Assembly: GCF_012720115.1 (NCBI RefSeq) | Contig: NZ_VNWN01000002.1 | Span: forward strand, 930,001-994,000 | DNA from: Sneathiella chinensis | GTDB lineage: Bacteria; Pseudomonadota; Alphaproteobacteria; Sneathiellales; Sneathiellaceae | DNA length: 64,000 bases | Direction: 5' to 3' | Shown here: positions 3,757-57,877 of the stretch, piece by piece | Position numbering within the stretch: the stretch's first letter is position 1 | Layout of the letters: every line of letters starts with the position of its first letter | The notes under the pieces: generated by a model | Databases searched by the model: none | What the model saw: only the letters and a program-made list of their open reading frames with translations | What the model was told of the DNA's origin: nothing | Program-made: the position numbers and the translations under genes

Positions 3757-4701
3757 TCAGGTCAGGATTTGAAACTTGCCGGCGATGATGGCAAACATCA
3801 CGATAGCACCAAAATTTTTGTTGGACTTGAATAAGGCAAGGCAGCGGTCGCCGTCATCAATATCCAGTTTCTGGATCTGCCAGAACAGGTGGGCTGCCGC
3901 CCCGGCCATCAGGACATAAAAGCCCGTATGAAGGCCCACAGACCAGCCGACAAAGACAACCAGCACCAAAAGCAGGCTGTAGAAGCCGAAAATCCAGTCC
4001 CGTGTGGCGGCCCCAAATTTCAGCGCCGTTGACTTCACACCAATCAGGATATCGTCTTCCTTGTCCTGATGGGCGTAAATGGTGTCATATCCCAGCGTCC
4101 ATGCAATGCCCGCGATGTAAAGCAGTACCGCTATCCAGCCAAGGTCGCCCTTGACCGCCGCCCAGCCAAGCAGCGCACCGTAATTGAAGGCCAGACCAAG
4201 GAAAACCTGCGGCCAATAGGTGAACCGCTTGGCAAAGGGATATATGGCCACAAGGATCAGGCTGGCGGCCCCCAGAAGAATGGCGAAATTGTTGAATTGC
4301 AGCAGCACAACAAGGCCGATCAGGCATTGGAAAATCAGCCACGCAAAGGCCTGTTTCAGGGAAACCTGACCGCTGGGAAGGGGGCGTTTCTTGGTTCTTT
4401 CGACCTTGCCGTCAAAATTCCGGTCGGCAATGTCGTTCAAGGTGCATCCGGCCCCGCGCATCACAAAGGCGCCAATGGCGAACAGCACAAACAGGCCCCA
4501 GTCGGGCCAGTGGCCATCCGGGGCGGCCAGTGCCACAGACCACCAGCACGGATACAGAAGCAACCATGTGCCGATGGGTCTGTCCACACGGGACAGCTTC
4601 AAATAGGGCTGAACAAATTCCGGTGCATACAGATCGACCCAGTTCTTTTTACTGGCATCGTCGATAACCCGGTCCTGTCGAATGTGCGGCGTCTTTTTCA
4701 T
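3757..4701 (-). CDS. ubiA: 4-hydroxybenzoate polyprenyltransferase
   Basis: A 314-residue polytopic membrane prenyltransferase. The first aspartate-rich motif is NDIADRNFD (89-97), followed by the KRPLPSG stretch, and the second is around YDTIYAHQD (205-213); both bind the polyprenyl diphosphate through Mg2+. The enzyme prenylates 4-hydroxybenzoate in the inner membrane, giving the substrate that UbiD next decarboxylates. The N-terminus is about 25 residues longer than the E. coli protein and is polar. It heads a minus-strand group with ubiD and diverges from rsmE, leaving 90 bp for promoters of both. Confidence 0.95.
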
Positions 4702-4791
4702 AAGCTTAGGGATTACCCCAACGGTGGGGTTACATCAATGCCCGTTTGCGGTTATATGGACCCTGTAGCCCCTAAAAATCGGGAAGGGACC

Positions 4792-5532
4792 ATGTCGCAA
4801 AAGCAATTTTCCGTTCGTCTGTTCGTGGATCAGGACCTGAAAAAGGACCTGGGTGTGGCATTGGACAAACCACAGGCCCATTACGTGGCAACCGTCATGC
4901 GGCATCAGGCCGGGGACCGGGTGGTTTTGTTCAATGGACGGGACGGCGAATGGCTGGGGGAAATCCAGGAAGCGAGAAAACAGACCGTCCTGATCCATGT
5001 GCAGGAGCAACTGCGCCCGCAACCCGAAGCAATGGATTTGCAGTTGTGGTTTGCGCCGGTCAAGAAAATCCAGAACGGCCTGATTGTCCAGAAGGCAACC
5101 GAACTGGGGGTGTCCGCGCTGGTCCCGGTCCAGACCCAGCGCACCAATGCGGATCGTCTTCGCACGGACAAGGCATACCTTCAGGCCATCGAGGCGGCGG
5201 AGCAGTCAGAACGATTGACCGTGCCAGAGGTGCGGGAACCGGTCAGGCTGGACACCATGCTGAAAGCGCTGGAGCCGGATCGGCAGTTGTTGTTCTGTCA
5301 CGAGCGACTGGACGGGGCCTCGGCGCTGGAGGTCTTGCAAAGGCAGGGCAGGGCACAGAAGTGGGCGGTTCTGGTGGGGCCGGAAGGCGGCTTCACCGAT
5401 GAGGAGCGGGAATTGATCCAGTCCTGTGAGCAGGCCCATGCCATCAGCCTTGGTCCTCGGATCCTGAGGGCGGAAACCGCAGTTATTGCCTCGTTATCTT
5501 TGCTTCAAGCGGTATGTGGCGACTGGAATTGA
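4792..5532 (+). CDS. rsmE: 16S rRNA (uracil-1498-N3)-methyltransferase
   Basis: A 246-residue SPOUT methyltransferase that methylates U1498 of 16S rRNA using S-adenosylmethionine. An N-terminal PUA-like half (about 1-75) precedes the SPOUT domain, whose knot carries LVGPEGGFTDEE (194-205) and LGPRILRAETA (220-230), both hallmarks of RsmE. The ATG at 4792 follows a GGGAAGGG ribosome site; the open frame extends far upstream antisense to ubiA, but that part is not coding. It stands next to gshA, as in many alphaproteobacteria, separated by 151 bp. Confidence 0.95.
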   Translation: MSQKQFSVRLFVDQDLKKDLGVALDKPQAHYVATVMRHQAGDRVVLFNGRDGEWLGEIQEARKQTVLIHVQEQLRPQPEAMDLQLWFAPVKKIQNGLIVQKATELGVSALVPVQTQRTNADRLRTDKAYLQAIEAAEQSERLTVPEVREPVRLDTMLKALEPDRQLLFCHERLDGASALEVLQRQGRAQKWAVLVGPEGGFTDEERELIQSCEQAHAISLGPRILRAETAVIASLSLLQAVCGDWN

Positions 5533-5683
5533 TTTATTATTGCGAATAATGCAAAACTGAATTGCCTGCAATCCGCTGCCAACGAATTGATTTGAACTTG
5601 ATGCACGGGGTCCAATCAATTAATTCAGGAAAAACACGAATGGGTGAGCGACCGTCGCGACCCGACTGAGCAAAGGGAACCGT

Positions 5684-7051
5684 ATGTCCGGACCAGCAAA
5701 AGGCGACGCCATAGAAATCGCCAACAAGACCCAACTCGTCGAATTCGCCGAAAGTGGTTGCAAGCCGATCGAAAAATGGCGCATCGGCACAGAACATGAA
5801 AAGTTCGGCTTCAATCTGGAGACGCTGGAACCGCTGCCTTACGGCGGGCCAAGCGGGATCAAGGCCATGCTGGAAGGGTTGCAGGCTTTTGGCTGGCAGC
5901 CGGTGATGGAAGGCGACAATGTTATTGCTCTCAGCATGAACGGCCATTCGGTCAGCCTTGAGCCGGGCGGGCAGCTTGAACTTTCCGGCGAGGCGCTTGA
6001 GAACCTTCACCAGACCTGCAGCGAAGTACACACCCATCTGGCGCAGGTGCGCGAGGTGGGCGACAAGATCGGCGTCGGTTTTCTAGGGCTGGGCTTCAGC
6101 CCCAAATGGACACTGGAAGAAACCCCCATCATGCCAAAGGGCCGGTATGACATCATGCGGGCCTATATGCCCACGCGGGGACAGCACGGGCTGGACATGA
6201 TGCTGCGCTCCTGCACGGTTCAGGTCAATCTGGACTATGGTTCTGAAGCGGACATGATCAAGAAGTTCCGGACGTCACTGGCCTTGCAGCCGGTTGCGAC
6301 GGCGCTGTTTGCCAATTCCCCCTTCACCGAGGGTAAGCCCAACGGCCATCTCAGTCATCGCAGTTATATCTGGACCGACACGGACCCGGATCGGACCGGG
6401 ATGCTGCCCTTCGTTTTTGAAGATGGTTTCTCGTTCGAGCAGTATGTGGACTATGCGCTTGATGTGCCCATGTATTTTGTCTATCGGGACGGTAAATATA
6501 TCGACGCCTCCGGTCAGTCTTTCCGTGATTTCATGGACGGGAACCTGCCCGCCCTGCCGGGAGAGCGCCCGAACATGGTCGATTGGGACAACCATCTGAC
6601 CACCCTGTTCCCGGAAGTCCGCATGAAGCGGTTCCTTGAAATGCGCGGTGCCGATGGCGGGCCGTGGCGCCGCCTGTGTGCCCTGCCGGCGCTTTGGGTT
6701 GGCTTGCTGTATGATGATGCGGCGCTGAACGCGGCGTGGGATCTGGTCAAGGACTGGACCGCCGAAGACCGTCAGGCCTTGCGGGATGGTGTGATCACCA
6801 CCGCGCTGGCGACGCGCACCCCGGATGGACGCACGATGCGTGATCTGGCTCATGATGTGCTGGAGATCGCGACAGAAGGCCTGAAGGCGCGCAAGCGTCT
6901 CGACAGTTTTGGCGGGGACGAGACTCACTTCCTGAATGCCCTGAAGGTGATCGTGGAAACCGGCGAAACCCCGGCGGAAGAACTGCTCCGGAAATATAAC
7001 GGCGAATGGGAACACTCTGTTGACCCGGTCTTCCGGGAATATGCCTACTGA
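5684..7051 (+). CDS. gshA: Glutamate-cysteine ligase (plant/proteobacterial class)
   Basis: A 455-residue protein of the GCS2 family, the class shared by alphaproteobacteria and plants, which joins glutamate and cysteine with ATP as the first step of glutathione synthesis. Recognisable segments are [15 protein letters not shown] (near 30-44), the [13 protein letters not shown] stretch, and [24 protein letters not shown] in the middle, split over 6165-6240. Length matches the family. It is monocistronic or paired with rsmE and ends at a strong bidirectional terminator shared with tldD. chaC, which cleaves glutathione, is also in this window at 57149. Confidence 0.95.
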
Positions 7052-7088
7052 TCCGCATCGCGCCTGACAGGCAGAAAACACCCATAAA

Positions 7089-7130
7089 AAAAGCCCCGGA
7101 AGACGATAATCTTTCCGGGGCTTTTGTTTT
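7089..7130. terminator. Bidirectional rho-independent terminator between gshA and tldD
   Basis: An 11-bp stem, AAGCCCCGGAA at 7091-7101 pairing with TTCCGGGGCTT at 7113-7123, is flanked by an A-run on the left and a T-run on the right, so it can end transcripts arriving from gshA on plus and from tldD on minus. Confidence 0.9.
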
Positions 7131-7145
7131 TGTCTGTCCGCTTGC

Positions 7146-8579
7146 TTATCCTGCGGTACCGCCGACGGTCAGGCCTTCCAGCAGCATGGTGGGTTGACCC
7201 ACGCCGACCGGCACACTCTGTCCGGCCTTGCCGCAGGTGCCAACGCCGGTATCAAGGGCCATGTCGTTGCCGATGGCGGTCACTTTTTTCAGGGCCTCGC
7301 TACCGGTGCCGATCAGGGTGGCGCCTTTGACGGGGGCGGTCAGTTTCCCATCCTCAATCAGATATGCCTCGGTGCAGGAGAAGACGAACTTCCCGGAGGT
7401 GATATCGACCTGACCACCGCCGAAGTTTCTGGTGTAGATACCCTTCTTTACGGAGGAAACGATTTCCTCAGGATCCCGGTCCCCGCCCAGCATATAGGTA
7501 TTGGTCATGCGGGGCATGGGCATGTGGGCGAAACTTTCGCGGCGCCCGTTGCCTGTGGGCTCCACACCCATCAGGCGGGCATTTTGCCGGTCCTGCATGT
7601 AGCCGACCAGAATGCCATCCTCGATCAGGGTGGTGCAGGAAGTGGCGGTGCCTTCGTCATCCACGCTGAGGGAGCCGCGCCGATCGGGCAGGGTTCCGTC
7701 ATCGACGACCGTGACGCCGGGGGCGGCGACCCGCTCCCCGATCAGGCCGGAGAAGACGGATGTTTTCTTGCGGTTGAAGTCGCCTTCAAGACCATGACCG
7801 ACGGCTTCATGAAGGATGATGCCGGGCCAGCCGGGGCCCAGAACAACCGGCATTTCACCGGCCGGGGCCTCGACAGAGTCCAGATTGACGAGGGCTTGCC
7901 GCAGGGCTTCATCAACGGCCCCCTCCCATGTGGCTTCCTCCAGATAGAAGCCGTATCCGGTACGGGCACCCATACCGTGGCTGCCGGTTTCGCGGCGGCC
8001 GTTCTTTTCCACGACAACCGAGACATTCAGCCGGACGAGGGGGCGGATATCGCCGCTGCGGGCGCCGCCGCTGCGAATGATTTCCACCGCCTGCCATGAG
8101 CCTGCCAGTGACGCGGAGACCTGAACCACCCGGCTGTCTCTGGCGCGGGCATAGGCATCGATATCTGCGAGTGCCTTGACCTTGGCATCGAAGGGGATTT
8201 CGTTCAGCGGATTTTCATCGGTATAGAGGGAGCGGTTGGCGCCTGCGGGCGGCAGGGCGAGAACGCCGGATTTCCCCTGCGTCACCGCCGAAACGGTCCC
8301 CGAAGCGCGCTTGATGGCTTCCTCGCTCAGTTCTGATGCGTGGGCAAACCCGGTTGCCTCGCCGGAAACGGCACGCAGGCCGAACCCCTGCGTGGTGTCG
8401 AAGCTGGCGCTTTTCAGTCGGCCATCATCAAAGGAGAACCCCTCGGACTGGCGGTATTCCAGAAACAGTTCGCCGTCATCGGCCCCTTCCAGAGACTGGG
8501 TGACCTGCTTTGTAATCAATTCCCGGTCCATTCCCGTGGGCTCAAAGAAGATTTTGTTGGCGGTATTGATATCTGTCAC
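7146..8579 (-). CDS. tldD: Metalloprotease TldD
   Basis: 477 residues from a GTG at 8579, against 481 in E. coli TldD. The zinc-binding HEAVGHGLEGD motif lies around 260-270 and is followed by family stretches (FSGLIGERV, PTGNGRRESFAHMPMPRMTNTY, NFGGGQVDITSGKF). TldD and PmbA/TldE together form a barrel-shaped protease in which TldD supplies the active site. The GTG has a CGGAG ribosome site 7 nt upstream; the frame runs a further 54 codons upstream, but that extension has no homology to the family. It is divergent from the oxidase operon and ends at the terminator shared with gshA. Confidence 0.95.
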   Translation of the reverse strand: MTDINTANKIFFEPTGMDRELITKQVTQSLEGADDGELFLEYRQSEGFSFDDGRLKSASFDTTQGFGLRAVSGEATGFAHASELSEEAIKRASGTVSAVTQGKSGVLALPPAGANRSLYTDENPLNEIPFDAKVKALADIDAYARARDSRVVQVSASLAGSWQAVEIIRSGGARSGDIRPLVRLNVSVVVEKNGRRETGSHGMGARTGYGFYLEEATWEGAVDEALRQALVNLDSVEAPAGEMPVVLGPGWPGIILHEAVGHGLEGDFNRKKTSVFSGLIGERVAAPGVTVVDDGTLPDRRGSLSVDDEGTATSCTTLIEDGILVGYMQDRQNARLMGVEPTGNGRRESFAHMPMPRMTNTYMLGGDRDPEEIVSSVKKGIYTRNFGGGQVDITSGKFVFSCTEAYLIEDGKLTAPVKGATLIGTGSEALKKVTAIGNDMALDTGVGTCGKAGQSVPVGVGQPTMLLEGLTVGGTAG

Positions 8580-9050
8580 TGATAGGCTCCGAACTGATGC
8601 TGTGTCTTGAGTGTTAAAACCATGACCCTGAATATGTGACTTCCGGGACGGAATGTCGAGAGGCTGCGAAGCGGCAGGGGGAAATGCGCAACCAGAGGAC
8701 GGGATCGTAACCCAGTGCGACATTATGTCACAACTTGACAAGGGAAATGTGCGATTTTTCGCATATTTAACTATTTCCGATTTGTGTGTTTGGCGGTAAA
8801 CTATTGTAAAAAATAAAGTATTCGCTTGTCATGTAAGGGGTGGCCGGAAAGCAGGGAGCATCGAGGCGTTAGTTTTTGTTACTTTAGCTTGTTCAATCAC
8901 GCTTCGTTGGTGTAGTTTTCGCCCCGAATTGATCTGAATCATTTTTGATTTGAATCAATTGTCTGGGTATAAGCAATAATGAGAATAAAACTGCAGGAAG
9001 CCTGTTCTGTCAGGTTTTTGAGCAATGTAAGTGATTGAAAACGGGATAAA
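8580..9050. other. 471-bp AT-rich intergenic region between tldD and ctaC
   Basis: No gene is supported. The region holds the promoters of both divergent genes and is visibly richer in A and T than its surroundings. Two FNR/FixK-type palindromes lie at 8929-8958, followed by a possible -10 element TATAAG at 8968-8973. A small inverted repeat, GCGA-TTTTT-TCGC-like, is seen near 8752-8764. The ctaC leader is long, about 70 nt from any start near 8980. Confidence 0.7.
8929..8958. promoter_or_regulatory. Two FNR/FixK/Anr-type boxes upstream of the aa3 oxidase operon
   Basis: TTGATTTGAATCAA at 8945-8958 is a perfect TTGAT-N4-ATCAA palindrome. TTGATCTGAATCAT at 8929-8942 matches the same consensus at nine of ten positions. 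The two are centred 16 bp apart. With a -10 at 8968-8973 the nearer box would overlap the -35 region, a position typical of repression. The CRP/FNR-family regulator itself is not in the window. Confidence 0.7.
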
Positions 9051-9902
9051 ATGATGGCTATGGTAAGAAAAATTGTCGCACTATTTGCTGTACTCGCAGC
9101 AAGCACGCTGACAATGGGGAGCGCCGTTGCAGCCCAGGGGCAAGCGTCCCCGTGGCAGCTTGGATTGCAGGAAGCATTTTCACCTGTCGCGCGTGACATG
9201 CACGACTTTCACCAACTGCTGCTGGTCATTATCACGGCAATTACGGTGCTGGTGCTGGTGCTTCTGGTTTACGTTGTTGTACGGTTCAACAGAAAAGCCA
9301 ATCCAAACCCTTCCAAAACATCTCACAATACACTCATTGAAATCATCTGGACGGTTGTTCCGGTCCTGATTCTGGTCGTGATTGCCATCCCGTCCTTCAA
9401 TCTGTTGTATTTCGGGGACCGTGTCGAAAAGGCTGACATGACCCTCAAGGCGATCGGATACCAGTGGTACTGGGGTTACGAGTATATGGACGAGGACGGT
9501 CTTGCCTTCGAAGCGGTCATGCTTGAAGACAACGAACTGAAAGAGGGCCAACCCCGCCTGCTTGCCACGGACAACACGGTTGTGGTGCCGGTCGATACCA
9601 ATATCCGTCTGCTGATCACTGCCGAGGATGTGATTCACTCTTGGGCCATGCCGGCTCTGGGCGTGAAAATGGATGCGGTTCCCGGTCGTTTGAACGAAAC
9701 CTGGATGCGTGTTGAAAAGGAAGGCATGTACTACGGACAGTGTTCCGAACTGTGCGGTGCCCGCCACGGTTTCATGCCGATTGCCGTCAAGGCGGTCAGC
9801 AAGGAAGAATATGCAAAATGGCTTGTTGAGGCCAAAAAGAAATATGCCGGGATCGATGCACCTGTGATGAAAGTCGCCGACGCATCCGTCGCAGCGCAAT
9901 AA
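9051..9902 (+). CDS. ctaC: Cytochrome c oxidase subunit II (CuA-bearing)
   Basis: 283 residues with a signal peptide (about 1-28, ending AVAA), two membrane helices (about 55-77 and 98-120), and a periplasmic cupredoxin domain. All CuA ligands are present: H196, C231, E233, C235, H239 and M242 in the block CSELCGARHGFMP. The aromatic stretch GYQWYWGYEY (136-145), where electrons enter from cytochrome c, is intact. There is no fused C-terminal cytochrome c domain. The first two codons are both ATG and either could start. It heads the operon ctaC-ctaD-ctaB-coxF-ctaG-ctaE and is followed by ctaD after 22 bp. Confidence 0.97.
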   Translation: MMAMVRKIVALFAVLAASTLTMGSAVAAQGQASPWQLGLQEAFSPVARDMHDFHQLLLVIITAITVLVLVLLVYVVVRFNRKANPNPSKTSHNTLIEIIWTVVPVLILVVIAIPSFNLLYFGDRVEKADMTLKAIGYQWYWGYEYMDEDGLAFEAVMLEDNELKEGQPRLLATDNTVVVPVDTNIRLLITAEDVIHSWAMPALGVKMDAVPGRLNETWMRVEKEGMYYGQCSELCGARHGFMPIAVKAVSKEEYAKWLVEAKKKYAGIDAPVMKVADASVAAQ

Positions 9903-33953: not shown

Positions 33954-34444
33954 TATGCTTTTCCTTTCAAGTTGGCTTCAACAGCAGCGTTCAGGTCCGC
34001 GTCGGAAACATCCAGGGAAACAAGTTTGGAAACCGCAGCTTTGGCAGCTTCACCAGCAATGCTCTTGACGTTGGCAAGTGCTGTTTCCTTGGCGTTTGCG
34101 ATGCTTTCTTCGGCTGCTTTGGCATTGTCCGCAAGTTTGGCTTCAAGCTCGGCTTTACTGGCGTCCTGCTCTTTTGCAAGCTCGGCCTTCAATCCCGCAA
34201 CCATTGTGTGGGCTTTTGAGCGGGCCTCTTCCAGTGCGGCTTCATATTCCGTCTTTGCCTGTTCGGATTCTTCACTCAGCCGTCTGGCTTCGTCCAGATC
34301 CTTGGCAATACGGTCCTGACGCCCTTCCAACACCTCAGAAATGCGGGGGATCGCAATCTTGGCCATCGCGATATACAGGATCACGAAGCTGATAGCGAGC
34401 CACACCAACTGGGGCGGGAAATCTGCAAAATTAAGCTGCGGCAT
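33953..34444 (-). CDS. atpF': F0F1 ATP synthase subunit b'
   Basis: 163 residues: starts MPQLNFADFPPQLVWLAISFVILY, the standard b' N-terminus, with a membrane helix at about 13-31, then an alanine- and glutamate-rich stalk helix to the C-terminus. It forms the peripheral stalk with subunit b, linking F0 to F1 through delta. It lies 53 bp after atpE and overlaps atpF by one base. Confidence 0.93.
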   Translation of the reverse strand: MPQLNFADFPPQLVWLAISFVILYIAMAKIAIPRISEVLEGRQDRIAKDLDEARRLSEESEQAKTEYEAALEEARSKAHTMVAGLKAELAKEQDASKAELEAKLADNAKAAEESIANAKETALANVKSIAGEAAKAAVSKLVSLDVSDADLNAAVEANLKGKA

Positions 34445-34497
34445 AACCGTTCCTAAATCCTAGAGTTCAGAAATTCTTCAACGAAGTGTTGAAGGAC

Positions 34498-34722
34498 TTA
34501 AGCAAACAGGATCAGGAATGCGATAACCAGAGCGAACAGAGCAACAGCTTCTGTCAGGGCGAATGCCAGCAGAACGTTACCGAATACTTTCGGAGCTGCA
34601 GCCGGGTTACGCAGGGAACCTGAAATGTAGGATCCGAAGATGTTACCGAGACCAAGACCAACACCAGCAAGGGCGATAGTGGCCAGACCGGCACCAATCA
34701 TTTTTGCGGCTTCTACTTCCAT
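34498..34722 (-). CDS. atpE: F0F1 ATP synthase subunit c
   Basis: 74 residues forming a helical hairpin. The proton-carrying carboxylate is E58 (LTEAVALF) in the second helix and the polar loop is RNPAAAPK (38-45). The first helix carries the glycine repeats of the ring packing motif ([11 protein letters not shown]). Glutamate rather than a sodium-type site pattern indicates proton coupling. Gaps of 57 and 53 bp flank it. Confidence 0.97.
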
Positions 34723-34779
34723 GATTTTCTTCCTTCTTTAATCAAGAACTTAGTTCAAGTGTGAAACGAAAATTTAAAC

Positions 34780-35517
34780 TCAGTGATGCAGATGAATGGC
34801 ATCATTCAGATACAGGCATGACAGGATTGCAAACACATATGCCTGCAGGAAGGCCACGAGGAACTCAAGGCCAGTCAGAGCCGTGATAAACGCGAGGGGG
34901 ACCCAGCCACCCCACCAGCTCAGTGCAATCACGAAAGCGCCAAACACTTTCAACAGGGTGTGACCAGCCAGCATGTTCGCGAACAGACGAACGGAAAGGC
35001 TGATCGGCCGTACGAAATAAGAGATGATTTCGATCGGCACCAGGAGAACCAGCAGAACAGCCGGTACGTCACTGGGAACGAAGAATGACAGGAATTTGAA
35101 ACCGTGCCGGAAAATACCAACCAGCGTTACGGTGACAAAAACAGTCGCCGCCAGACCAAAGGTGACAATGATGTGGCTTGTTACGGTGAAGCTGTACGGG
35201 ATCATCCCGATCAGGTTACAGAACAGGACAAACATGAACACGGAGAAGATGAACGGGAAATATTTGCGCCCTTCGGAGCCCACGTTCTCTTTCAGCATGT
35301 TGGCAATAAACTCGTAACTGAGTTCCGCCATTGACTGCATCCGGCCCGGAACCATGGCGCGTCCACGCATGCTCAATGTCAAAAACAGCGTAATCGCTGC
35401 GATAACGATGATCATGAACAGGGAGGAGTTGGTGAAGGAAACGTCGACACCACCAACATTCATTTCAACCAGTCGTTTGATCTCAAACTGTGCTAAGGGG
35501 CTATGACCTTCTGCCAC
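34780..35517 (-). CDS. atpB: F0F1 ATP synthase subunit a
   Basis: 245 residues with five to six membrane helices. The essential arginine is R177 in the segment PISLSVRLFANMLAGH (171-186). It forms the two proton half-channels next to the c-ring. The C-terminal helix QAYVFAILSCLYLNDAIHLHH is also typical. It is the second gene of the F0 operon, 56 bp after atpI. Confidence 0.96.
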   Translation of the reverse strand: MAEGHSPLAQFEIKRLVEMNVGGVDVSFTNSSLFMIIVIAAITLFLTLSMRGRAMVPGRMQSMAELSYEFIANMLKENVGSEGRKYFPFIFSVFMFVLFCNLIGMIPYSFTVTSHIIVTFGLAATVFVTVTLVGIFRHGFKFLSFFVPSDVPAVLLVLLVPIEIISYFVRPISLSVRLFANMLAGHTLLKVFGAFVIALSWWGGWVPLAFITALTGLEFLVAFLQAYVFAILSCLYLNDAIHLHH

Positions 35518-35573
35518 GATACTGTTCCCGCCTTGTCTGTTTCATACTAAAGGAGAGTAGCGCGCCACTCTCC

Positions 35574-35888
35574 TCAATCCTTAAAATCATCCGGGTTCAT
35601 CGCTTTGGCAACCTTGAATACGTTATAAACGCCGACAATCATGCCAAGTACAACAAACACCAACAAAAAAACAGGCCGGGTGTCCAACCAATTATCGAGC
35701 AACCAGCCTAACCAGCCACAGACAAGAAAAGCAGCGATGATCTCCACCGATAATCGCCAGGCTCTGCCTGCTGCACCCGCTCGCTCGGCTCTCAGGCTGC
35801 CATCCCAGGAATTTTCTTCCTGTCGTTGACGGGCCTTTTCCAGCCGGGCTTTGAATTCTTCTTTTTCAGGGAGGTTTGGCTCAGTCAT
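35574..35888 (-). CDS. atpI: AtpI family protein (F0F1 ATP synthase subunit I)
   Basis: 104 residues: a charged N-terminal third (about 1-35) and two membrane helices (about 44-62 and 70-90, GWLGWLLDNWLDTRPVFLLVFVVLGMIVG). AtpI-type proteins help c-ring assembly or magnesium handling and commonly lead the F0 operon. The ATG at 35888 is preferred; an in-frame start 8 codons earlier is possible. Confidence 0.88.
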   Translation of the reverse strand: MTEPNLPEKEEFKARLEKARQRQEENSWDGSLRAERAGAAGRAWRLSVEIIAAFLVCGWLGWLLDNWLDTRPVFLLVFVVLGMIVGVYNVFKVAKAMNPDDFKD

Positions 35889-35944
35889 TTCCGCCTGCTT
35901 CACGAAAATCAAACATTATCCATCCCCCTACTGAAAGCGCGGGA

Positions 35945-35973
35945 AACATACGGTCTGCCCACGTCACTGTCAA
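35945..35973 (-). promoter_or_regulatory. Sigma70-like promoter for the F0 operon
   Basis: On the minus strand TTGACA (35973-35968) and TATGTT (35950-35945) are separated by 17 bp, placing a start near 35938, 50 bp before the atpI ATG. Confidence 0.6.
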
Positions 35974-36046
35974 GAACCAAACAATACCGACCTGTTCAGA
36001 CAAAACAAATGATTACTTTATTGTCAATTCTTCAATGATTGCAGGG

Positions 36047-54532: not shown

Positions 54533-54607
54533 TGGGGTGTAGCCAAGCGGTAAGGCAGCGGTTTTTGGTATCGCCATGCGCAGGTTCGAATCCTGCCACC
54601 CCAGCCA
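54533..54607 (+). tRNA. tRNA-Gln (anticodon TTG)
   Basis: A full cloverleaf: acceptor TGGGGTG/CACCCCA, D-arm GCC-AAGCGGTAA-GGC, anticodon stem GCGGT/ATCGC around loop TTTTGGT with anticodon TTG, variable loop CATGC, and T-arm GCAGG-TTCGAAT-CCTGC. The discriminator base is G and the CCA end is encoded. It closely resembles E. coli tRNA-Gln. It marks the left edge of an AT-rich accessory segment. Confidence 0.97.
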
Positions 54608-55032
54608 CTCACTTTCCTCTCAATATTCATCCGTGACAGTTTGCTTCATTCTTGGGCTGGAAGCTGTAGTGGTCGTTCTCTTTTGCCTTAGGTTCCCGTT
54701 TGTGACTGCTATGCGGTAGCGGTGTGAACTTTATCGGGCTTAAGGTCTTGATTCGGCGCGGGGACAATTTTCAGGAAATTTGTTCTATAAAAATATTACA
54801 ATAATGTTGTTTAAAGTAATAATTTAGTTTCACAAAGAAGTTTAATGTATCTTGGTGTGGTTAATTAAGACATATTGAAATACATCCATAATTATAGATA
54901 AACTTTTGTCTTCGTGGAAATAAATTTTTTCTAATTTTTCTTGTCATTTATTTTGAAAACACAGATACTCCGTCCCAGTTGAGCGACTGATCATCGGTCA
55001 ACGGGATATCCCCCCCGATATCCAAAAGATTT

Positions 55033-55165
55033 TAGTAACGAGTACAGTATCGCGTACCCTAGTATTGAGTACAGTATCGAGTACCCCAGTATTGAGTATC
55101 TATTAGTTGCGTATTCAGTATTGATTACATTAGTACCAAGTACCCCAAATACCTCAAGTACCCCA
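55033..55165. repeat. Degenerate GTA-rich direct repeats with a 27-bp tandem pair
   Basis: Two adjacent 27-bp copies at 55045-55071 and 55072-55098 agree at 25 of 27 positions. Related shorter pieces, mostly variants of GAGTACAGTAT and AAGTACCCC, extend the array on both sides. The tetramer GTAC recurs about seven times in 130 bp. It is not a CRISPR: there are no spacers. Confidence 0.8.
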
Positions 55166-55200
55166 CTGGCTTCAGGCTTCCTGCTGTCAGACTTGATATG

Positions 55201-55240
55201 ATCCCGGCACCGACCCCTCGTGCCGGGATTATTGCTTTTT
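55201..55240 (+). terminator. Terminator-like hairpin in the accessory segment
   Basis: ATCCCGGCAC at 55201-55210 pairs perfectly with GTGCCGGGAT at 55220-55229, 9-nt loop, then TATTGCTTTTT. It may end read-through from the tRNA side and insulate the following gene. Confidence 0.65.
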
Positions 55241-55424
55241 GGAGTGGTCGTGCCGGACAAACACCGGGGACGTCGTTTCAAACCGCCAAGACAATGTTGT
55301 TGGAAATGGGCGCTCATTAGTAAGCGGATTTCTACTAGACTTTTATGTCCAGATCGGGCGGACATCAGACCAGATTAAATCACGCAAACCATTCTTGGCT
55401 AAATCAATTTTTTTCCGGGGACTT

Positions 55425-56963
55425 ATGCTGTGTTCTTTCAGTTTAGTTGAGGTATTTGTAATTTTATGGTGTAGTTTTGGCTATCTATGGTCAGTCGGTG
55501 GGCTTGAAGAAGGTAGTTTTATTGTGGTGGCTTTATTCGAATGGGAATGTTTTGAAGGTCTCATAAATGATGGTGACTATGAGCTGCATGATGATAGTAT
55601 TTTGCATGCTCCGGTATCTGACATATCGATTAAAAGAAGTGATGATTTTCAAATTTATGTAACAACAAAGTCTCGAGAAGCAGTTCGCTGTAATAGGGTG
55701 AATTACCCTTTGGGCACAGTCAGGGAGAACCAAGAGACGACGAAAATAGTATCTAAATTTAGTTCAAGAGAGATCGTTTTAAGAGGAGTTGGAGCAACAA
55801 GTTATACTATTTCAAGTGACTTTCGACAAGGTGGTGTTTTTGAAGAAACAGCTTATATTCACTCTGTTGAAGGTTGTTTTTTGTCCCCGGAGAATGGTTG
55901 CTATCTATTTGAATGGGTGGAGAACATAGACGCTTCCTATTTTTATTGGCCGCGCATCATAACGCTTAGTAGGGAAGAAACAATAACGGTTAGTTTTGAA
56001 GATGAAGTGCCGGAAATTTGTTTGAGTGAGAAAAAAATAGGTAAAGGTGGTTCTGAGAGAAGGGGTGTCAAATTATCTATTGATGGGAATGAATTGTATG
56101 TTTCGAAAGTCAGTGGTGAAAGGTCTGGGAGGGCATTTATTATGTATAAGGGGTGCCCATCAGATGAGGTAAGGAATAAAATAAGGGATTGTATATCATT
56201 TTGTTTGGGAAGACCTATCATTTATTTAGGTAACACAATTCTTGATAAAAAATTATCTTTGGTTTCTTTCTCTGCAATCAGTGCGTATAGCTTCAATGGA
56301 GCCGCAATCAACTTACCTATATGTCCGCCCGTATGTTTAGGTGAGAGAGATAAAACTAAAATTAGTGAGATTAAACTAAATCTATTGGTTAAGGGATTGT
56401 ACGGAATTTACGATAAGCATAATGTTAGGGGCCTTTTTTGGCAGTATTGGCACGCCGTATGTTCTCCTGTGCATTCTGCGCCTGTGCAGTTCGGATCTTG
56501 TATTGAAGCATTAACAAACTCTATTCTTCGTATTAACAAGAGAGCAGTAAAAACTAAGATATTAGAAGAAATGGATTGGAAAGCGTTTGCCAAAGAAGCA
56601 GATAAAATGCTTCTGCATCTTGATATATGTGAAGAAGGGAAGAAGGTAATACGAAAAAAAATAAGCTCACTTAACAGCGCGCCACAGAAACTTGTAAACG
56701 AAAGGGTTTATGAATTTCTTAATCTTGAATTTACGGAAATGGAAAAAGTCGTTTGGGAAAGGAGGAATGCTGCGGCCCATGGAAGGGGGGGCGAAGAAAA
56801 AAATCATGCAGCTCTAATACGGGAAAACAAAATTTTAAGAATTTTATTCCACAGGCTTCTAATAAAGGTCTCAGGGGGATGTGACCAGTATATTGATTTT
56901 TATACCATAAATCATCCAATAAGACTTATAGAAACAGGTATTCCATCAGACGTAGTCGACTAG
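55425..56963 (+). CDS. AT-rich HEPN-domain protein, candidate ApeA-like anti-phage nuclease
   Basis: 512 residues from the ATG at 55425. The C-terminal 150 residues look like a HEPN domain: mostly helical, with WERRNAAAHGRGG holding an R447-X4-H452 motif, the RNase motif of HEPN proteins. The preceding 300 or so residues are beta-rich and unlike any enzyme I recognise; that order, a beta-rich N-terminal domain before HEPN, is the layout of ApeA defence proteins. Base composition is far more AT-rich than all neighbours, with many AAA, ATA and TTA codons, so recent transfer is likely. No partner gene is adjacent. The first 25 residues are hydrophobic and the true start is uncertain; a GTG near 55527 is another option. 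Confidence 0.7.
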   Translation: MLCSFSLVEVFVILWCSFGYLWSVGGLEEGSFIVVALFEWECFEGLINDGDYELHDDSILHAPVSDISIKRSDDFQIYVTTKSREAVRCNRVNYPLGTVRENQETTKIVSKFSSREIVLRGVGATSYTISSDFRQGGVFEETAYIHSVEGCFLSPENGCYLFEWVENIDASYFYWPRIITLSREETITVSFEDEVPEICLSEKKIGKGGSERRGVKLSIDGNELYVSKVSGERSGRAFIMYKGCPSDEVRNKIRDCISFCLGRPIIYLGNTILDKKLSLVSFSAISAYSFNGAAINLPICPPVCLGERDKTKISEIKLNLLVKGLYGIYDKHNVRGLFWQYWHAVCSPVHSAPVQFGSCIEALTNSILRINKRAVKTKILEEMDWKAFAKEADKMLLHLDICEEGKKVIRKKISSLNSAPQKLVNERVYEFLNLEFTEMEKVVWERRNAAAHGRGGEEKNHAALIRENKILRILFHRLLIKVSGGCDQYIDFYTINHPIRLIETGIPSDVVD

Positions 56964-57148
56964 CTTGCGGTTTCAATGACACTGAGGCAGATGTTTTTTG
57001 AGTATTAAATGGTTTCTCTGGGTTTTGTCTCATAAATAGTTTGAATATATTTCTCCGAAGTCTTTGGAATGATACTGAAGGCTGCTCTTGTGTTGTTTAT
57101 CATTGAATACGGCAATAGTAGCAAGTTAGCGCAGGACATGCCCTTGCA

Positions 57149-57877
57149 CTATGTTCCATTGGCTTGGGAAAGCTCGTTGATCAGCTTCCGTTCCACCCCA
57201 GACTCTTCCAGGTCCCTGAGCAACTCGTGAAGATAGCTGTCGACCACGTTGATTTCGTCAAGATGGGCCACGGTGTTTTCAAGATATTGCCGGCAGGAGC
57301 CAAGATAGCCTTCACCCCGGGCGATGCGCTGGAGCGTTTCTTCCCGGCTCATCTGCTGGACGTAGCGGGGATGGTCCCGGTTGACCACAAAGGTCATGCC
57401 CGTGAACATGTGCCCGTCCGACTGGAGGCGGCACCATTTCGGCTTATAGGCCCCGGTCAGCATCTCCCGCATCCAGAGGATCGTTGTCTCGCTTTCCACC
57501 AGTTCTTCCGGGATATAGAAGGCCCGCCCGTTGCAGGAGCCCCCGGTATCGAGGGCCAGCATCAATCCCGGCTTGTCCGGGCTGCCCCGTCCCATGGTGA
57601 GGGACAGGCAGAACCGCCGGCGATAGCCAAAAAGGCGGGCAGGGCGGGACTGTTCGAACTCGAACGCCGGGTTCCAGAGAAGCGAGCCATAGCCGAACAC
57701 CCAAAGGCCCTGTTGCTTACCCTGCCGGTCTTGAGGGTGCTTTTCTTTCTGCCCAAGAAATTGCAGCCTGTTTTCTGCCCTTTCTTCATGGGTGAGGGCG
57801 TGATAAGGGCCGTGCTTTCGGGCCTCGGCGATAATTTGATCAATGCGTTGAGGGGTGAAATCCTCTCGTTTCAGCAT
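57149..57877 (-). CDS. chaC: ChaC-type glutathione-specific gamma-glutamylcyclotransferase
   Basis: 242 residues. The substrate loop is VFGYGSLLWNP (60-70) and the likely catalytic glutamate is E124 or E125 in FYIPEELVESE. The C-terminal GEGYLGSCRQYLENTVAHL also fits. It cleaves glutathione to 5-oxoproline and Cys-Gly in the cytoplasm. An N-terminal extension of about 50 residues is charged. It is the first ordinary gene after the AT-rich segment, ending 185 bp from the HEPN gene, and returns to the normal GC-rich composition. Confidence 0.93.
   Translation of the reverse strand: MLKREDFTPQRIDQIIAEARKHGPYHALTHEERAENRLQFLGQKEKHPQDRQGKQQGLWVFGYGSLLWNPAFEFEQSRPARLFGYRRRFCLSLTMGRGSPDKPGLMLALDTGGSCNGRAFYIPEELVESETTILWMREMLTGAYKPKWCRLQSDGHMFTGMTFVVNRDHPRYVQQMSREETLQRIARGEGYLGSCRQYLENTVAHLDEINVVDSYLHELLRDLEESGVERKLINELSQANGT

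Follow-up and report, generated by a model that had tools for sequence, protein, structure and literature searches.

A foreign single-gene insert in Sneathiella chinensis encoding a candidate HEPN abortive-infection protein

The locus and the single-gene insert

The 64,000-nucleotide stretch of the Sneathiella chinensis genome analyzed here (contig NZ_VNWN01000002.1, positions 930,001 to 994,000; hereafter the window) carries, between a tRNA-Gln and a ChaC-family gene (chaC), a lone gene for a protein with a predicted C-terminal HEPN domain (Table 1). The 512-amino-acid (aa) open frame in which it was first noticed (55425–56963, + strand) is real, and the gene read from the GTG at 55527 has a GC content of 37.7%, with 31% at third codon positions (GC3). 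The 64-kb window outside the gene, taken in 1.43-kb segments, has a mean GC of 56.9% (standard deviation 2.5, minimum 49.0%), and GC3 lies at 65–73% in five nearby genes, i.e., ispE, a hydrolase-like gene, chaC, and those for a sulfotransferase and an acyl-CoA dehydrogenase. The AT-richness remarked upon in a first-pass annotation of the sequence is thus borne out; its picture of a gene standing alone between a tRNA and a core gene is right as to the isolation between tRNA-Gln and chaC, but "beside the tRNA" is not apt, as the gene lies 0.9 kb from tRNA-Gln and against chaC. The composition profile of the window has two other lower-GC stretches, at 8501–9500 (0.47) and 34001–36000 (about 0.50).

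Conservation across homologues begins at about residue 36–41 of the 512-aa protein, with tblastn matches to them starting at residues 23–41, and a GAAGAAGG stretch precedes the two adjacent GTG codons at 55524 and 55527. Given this onset of conservation and the position of the GAAGAAGG stretch, upstream DNA that happens to be in frame is the most likely source of the hydrophobic first 25 residues, which would then not be translated. Between the two explanations offered earlier for these residues, the homologue alignment thus favors a wrongly assigned start over a membrane-attached form. Two homologues (L007 and L033) have 15–19 extra N-terminal residues, which are not hydrophobic.

Comparison with relatives marks the gene as a foreign single-gene insert. 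Searches of 23 same-genus genomes (some of them incomplete) and of one genome of the same family did not recover it. In three of eight same-genus relatives (G011, G014 and G009), a hairpin and GTACTAGGGTAC-like repeats occur about 1–25 bases past the chaC stop codon, and in G011 this tract also holds a GGATATC palindrome identical to that of the window; the other five have different sequence after chaC. The window has a like tract, in which a hairpin precedes GTACTAGGGTAC-like repeats and there is a GGATATCGGGGGGGATATCC palindrome, about 1.9 kb away from chaC, and the gap holds only the HEPN gene. The plain reading of this arrangement is that one gene was inserted at the chaC 3' end: the tract that comes directly after chaC in three of the eight relatives here precedes the gene, which makes the 3' end of chaC, and not the tRNA, the apparent point of insertion. 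In the window no repeat of the tRNA-Gln 3' end was found, and the chaC product is 242 aa long as against 219–225 aa in the eight relatives.

Table 1. Features at the locus, in window coordinates
Feature	Position	Strand	Remarks
tRNA-Gln(TTG)	54533..54607	+	apparent integration site in related species
Hairpin, GTACTAGGGTAC-like repeats and GGATATC palindrome	55004..55240	.	compared with same-genus relatives
Putative single-gene insert between chaC-downstream tract and chaC	55241..57149	.	right edge uncertain, 57149–57220; compared with G011, G014, G009
HEPN gene, 478 aa	55527..56963	+	from GTG 55527 (GTG 55524 equally possible; ATG of the first-pass annotation, 55425); start from homologue alignment
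Beta-rich N-terminal half, putative sensor, residues 1–254	55527..56288	+	without family match
HEPN domain, about residues 281–460	56367..56906	+	C-terminal model, second-look rows, profile match to ApeA HEPN
RNAAAHG, R-x4-H motif, R413–G419	56763..56783	+	homologue alignments
ChaC-family gene, 242 aa	57149..57877	-	altered 3' end compared with relatives

The HEPN domain and the homologue family

Besides the window, 18 distinct homologous loci can be recognized, with proteins 27–34% identical to that of the window and identical proteins counted once (L002, L007 and L008; L066 and L067). A tblastn search of plasmids contributed two homologues (29–32% identity), an alignment search of genome contigs 12 loci and viral contigs six, whereas a search of 398 genomes of the phylum returned the window, G678 and one genome apparently the same as that of L018. 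In an alignment of 15 rows (the window and 14 of the 18 homologues), R413, A416, A417, H418 and G419 are invariant and N414 is present in at least 90%; RNxAAHG is likewise invariant in a set of 14 rows that includes the four homologues left out of the former. One homologue (L065) has H in place of N after the arginine, such that the motif across the family reads R-(N/H)-x-A-A-H-G. Thus, the R-x4-H motif to which the first-pass annotation had pointed (its R447 and H452, here R413 and H418) is kept across the homologues, in the form typical of the HEPN superfamily: R-x4-6-H with a polar residue after the arginine, conserved within the family.

The predicted C-terminal model has a helical HEPN fold; in the second-look alignment, structures of HEPN proteins come first and make up all seven of the best rows, in line with the domain proposed in the first pass. 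In profile scans of Pfam and NCBIfam, none of the curated HEPN models matched the window protein, and no useful match came from Pfam, NCBIfam, PADLOC 2.0, PHROGs or the PDB sequences, though the homologue L033 matches HEPN_Apea, RiboL-PSP and MAE_28990, each below its cut-off. What emerges is a HEPN family unmatched in Pfam, NCBIfam, PADLOC 2.0 and PHROGs that is found on plasmids, on viral contigs and in two bacterial classes. The proteins of the Burkholderiales copies (L013–L015) and of alphaproteobacterial ones (L003, L010–L012, L016 and L017) are 83–95% identical, and the gene therefore moves between classes. Within this closer group, the ratio of nonsynonymous to synonymous substitution rates (dN/dS) is low, at 0.08–0.26 in eight pairs; two wider pairs are saturated.

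Two remoter proteins, one from Leptospira interrogans plasmids (L006, 3437–4840) and one from genome G183 (L044, 1820–3205), have the HEPN part in common with the window family (profile P of 1e-12 and 3e-8; the Leptospira match takes in about 60 residues before the HEPN part), whereas their N-terminal parts gave no match to it in the same profile comparison. This contrast suggests an exchange of sensor domains among HEPN relatives and, together with the occurrence on plasmids, on viral contigs and in two bacterial classes, makes the family a compact test case for what the sensor recognizes and how a HEPN ribonuclease (RNase) is kept silent. On the Leptospira plasmids, the gene adjoins one whose ATP-binding product gives a partial match to Avs1b.

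The survey of homologues that the first-pass annotation had proposed turned up plasmids, viral contigs and neighborhoods of defense genes, and not one core locus. Two of the 18 loci are on plasmids and four lie among phage genes: L065 has a terminase large subunit on one side and a tyrosine integrase on the other, L066 is next to a baseplate gene, and L068 and L070 are next to genes identified by eye as those of a primase, integrase, tail protein or repressor. This context is partly due to selection, as these four were drawn from a viral collection. A direct link to defense is limited to six of the 18 loci, whose flanks, as far as examined, hold recognized defense genes; the PADLOC scan of flanks was confined to loci outside L065–L070. 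These are G678 (a CD-NTase 78 nt upstream, a second cyclase, a PtuA-like PDC-M01A and PDC-M01B), L011 (a SAVED-HNH effector, E1-E2, a type I restriction-modification system, SIR2 and HerA), L012 (a GajB-type helicase, as in Gabija, assigned to this locus from its Walker A motif), L014 (an ATPase-TOPRIM), L015 (the candidate PDC-M02B) and L069 (a SMODS CD-NTase above cut-off). Near the HEPN homologue and the helicase of L012 lies a gene (4909–6642) for a 577-aa protein with a TIR-like start, recognized by eye, and no match in Pfam or PADLOC.

Comparison with known HEPN systems and the proposed mode of action

ApeA (ApeA_NTD1, PF18862, joined to HEPN_Apea, PF18739) protects against phages alone and is reportedly activated by deoxydinucleotides. 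Like the window protein, to which it is similar in size, it joins a mostly-beta N-terminal part and a C-terminal HEPN domain bearing R-x4-H in a single protein. The likeness at the level of profiles is distant and confined to the HEPN part: HEPN_Apea matches the HEPN part of the window family with a profile P of 5e-5 to 2e-3, but does not match the window protein and reaches 20.1 and 23.2 bits in L033 against a cut-off of 24.4. Scans of the window protein, of six homologues and of two remoter relatives gave no match to ApeA_NTD1, although the same model was matched by all five whole proteins picked out with HEPN_Apea, as well as by one N-terminal piece; in hhalign, the N-terminal halves compared with ApeA gave P of 0.33 and 0.49, at the level of the reversed controls (0.39 and 0.64). 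Since its beta-rich N-terminal half is not recognizably ApeA_NTD1, the tests run place the window protein outside ApeA. From the earlier suggestion of an ApeA-like or a new HEPN protein, the second half survives, along with an ApeA-like layout and a distantly ApeA-like HEPN part.

In the second-look alignment, the C-terminal model has its top rows among the HEPN folds of HepT-type proteins, AbiV and Csx1. These work with partner or sensor parts, i.e., an MNT antitoxin for the HepT type, a partner for AbiV and a CARF domain in Csx1, none of which was seen with the window gene. Tha, a tail-activated anti-phage protein of staphylococcal prophages, is a HEPN RNase that likewise has R-N-x3-H close to its C-terminus and is carried by prophages, but it is described as having 301 aa and no discernible N-terminal domain (PMC11087260); it is set beside the window protein by this description and not by sequence.

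The best reading of these comparisons would be a new HEPN abortive-infection family that has the layout of ApeA without being a member of it. It is probable that the window gene is a horizontally acquired, stand-alone defense gene that couples a sensor half to a HEPN RNase and acts by abortive infection—probably a one-gene virus alarm not named by the family databases searched. Its outline of action would most likely be that of ApeA or Tha. The C-terminal domain, as a dimer, would cut cellular RNA via R413 and H418, and the beta-rich N-terminal half would keep the RNase silent and sense a product of phage infection; infection would then release the RNase, translation would stop, and the infected cell would die or go dormant before the phage could spread. 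To our knowledge, it is not established what most stand-alone HEPN proteins sense. As a long shot, the N-terminal half might be a barrel like that of tail tubes or Hcp, able to mimic the tail-tube subunits that a phage makes during infection or to assemble together with them, such that a phage structural fold would itself be the sensor releasing the RNase.

Several observations weigh against this picture of a defense RNase. For the C-terminal domain, confidence was reached in only one of five models, and Foldseek by itself gave no significant match. As for the enrichment in defense genes, 85 open reading frames (ORFs), taken from nine loci, produced 32 family hits of one member each; among the 25 of these that were listed, most are to GajB models, together with DrmD, PD-T4-7, mad3 and RTasHel, which were not assignable to a locus. 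A control of 50 other ORFs of the window (at least 150 aa, chosen by length, with three antisense picks swapped by hand for real genes) gave six family hits, one at 1.7e-53.

Alternative readings and related elements

That the protein is the toxin of a toxin-antitoxin or plasmid-stabilizing module, and not a phage sensor, appears unlikely: two relatives are plasmid-borne and HEPN/MNT toxin-antitoxin pairs are described as very abundant (PMC7641770), but the loci showed no partner gene in common. Only an HNH-type gene or its remnant recurs upstream at more than one locus (L010, L003, L016 and L017), and the window insert has no second ORF of more than 130 aa, though it has antisense ORFs of 124 and 92 aa that lay outside the scan. 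Equally improbable is a C-terminal domain that binds RNA or nucleotides but does not cleave them, the gene being regulatory or decaying. Some HEPN families are indeed reported to have lost the motif (PMC3710099), and for the window copy there is no relative close enough for a test of selection; yet the motif residues R, A, A, H and G stand in all 15 aligned rows, the 478-aa frame is intact and dN/dS among the relatives is low.

The CD-NTase neighbors in three of the 18 records raise the question of whether some members of the family have joined cyclic oligonucleotide-based antiphage signaling systems (CBASS). SMODS genes above cut-off are present in four of the 18 homologue records, and in three of these (G678, L069 and L011) within about 2.5 kb of the homologue. 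Under such a scheme, the cyclic nucleotide made by a CD-NTase would bind to the N-terminal half and thereby switch on the HEPN RNase; the CD-NTase upstream of the homologue on the same strand in G678, and that upstream in L069 with a two-transmembrane-type gene (by eye) in between, speak for it. Against it, 14 of the 18 records have no SMODS gene (the viral ones being fragments), most homologues have no adjacent CD-NTase, and the second cyclase of G678 forms a separate divergent pair with a membrane-type protein (by eye). For the window gene, there is no CD-NTase in the same locus and no SMODS match in its own genome, which is 99.27% complete; as none of the SMODS family was detected there, dependence on such a CD-NTase or a role in CBASS seems unlikely here, and we hold the effector scheme as a whole to be very unlikely. 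In L069, an IMG/VR contig with an integrase-like ORF, the CD-NTase, the two-transmembrane-type gene and the HEPN homologue stand in a row on one strand (4087–7241), possibly a CBASS with an extra HEPN effector.

The interval from tRNA-Gln to chaC varies within the genus, and in two relatives the tRNA itself is the apparent integration site. In G011 (L036, 623–3703), a repeat of the tRNA-Gln 3' end occurs 3 kb downstream and encloses two genes, for a GMT-wHTH-type protein and a DUF5131 protein, which match the PADLOC candidates PDC-M30A and PDC-M41B/M30B; this may be seen as a small candidate defense element of a related species, lying at the same site. In G009 (L057, 1182–10786), the same tRNA-Gln bears an AT-richer element of 9.5 kb, with the tRNA 3'-end repeat 9.5 kb downstream and ORFs that, named by eye, are integrase-like (after the tRNA), resolvase-like and restriction-endonuclease-like.
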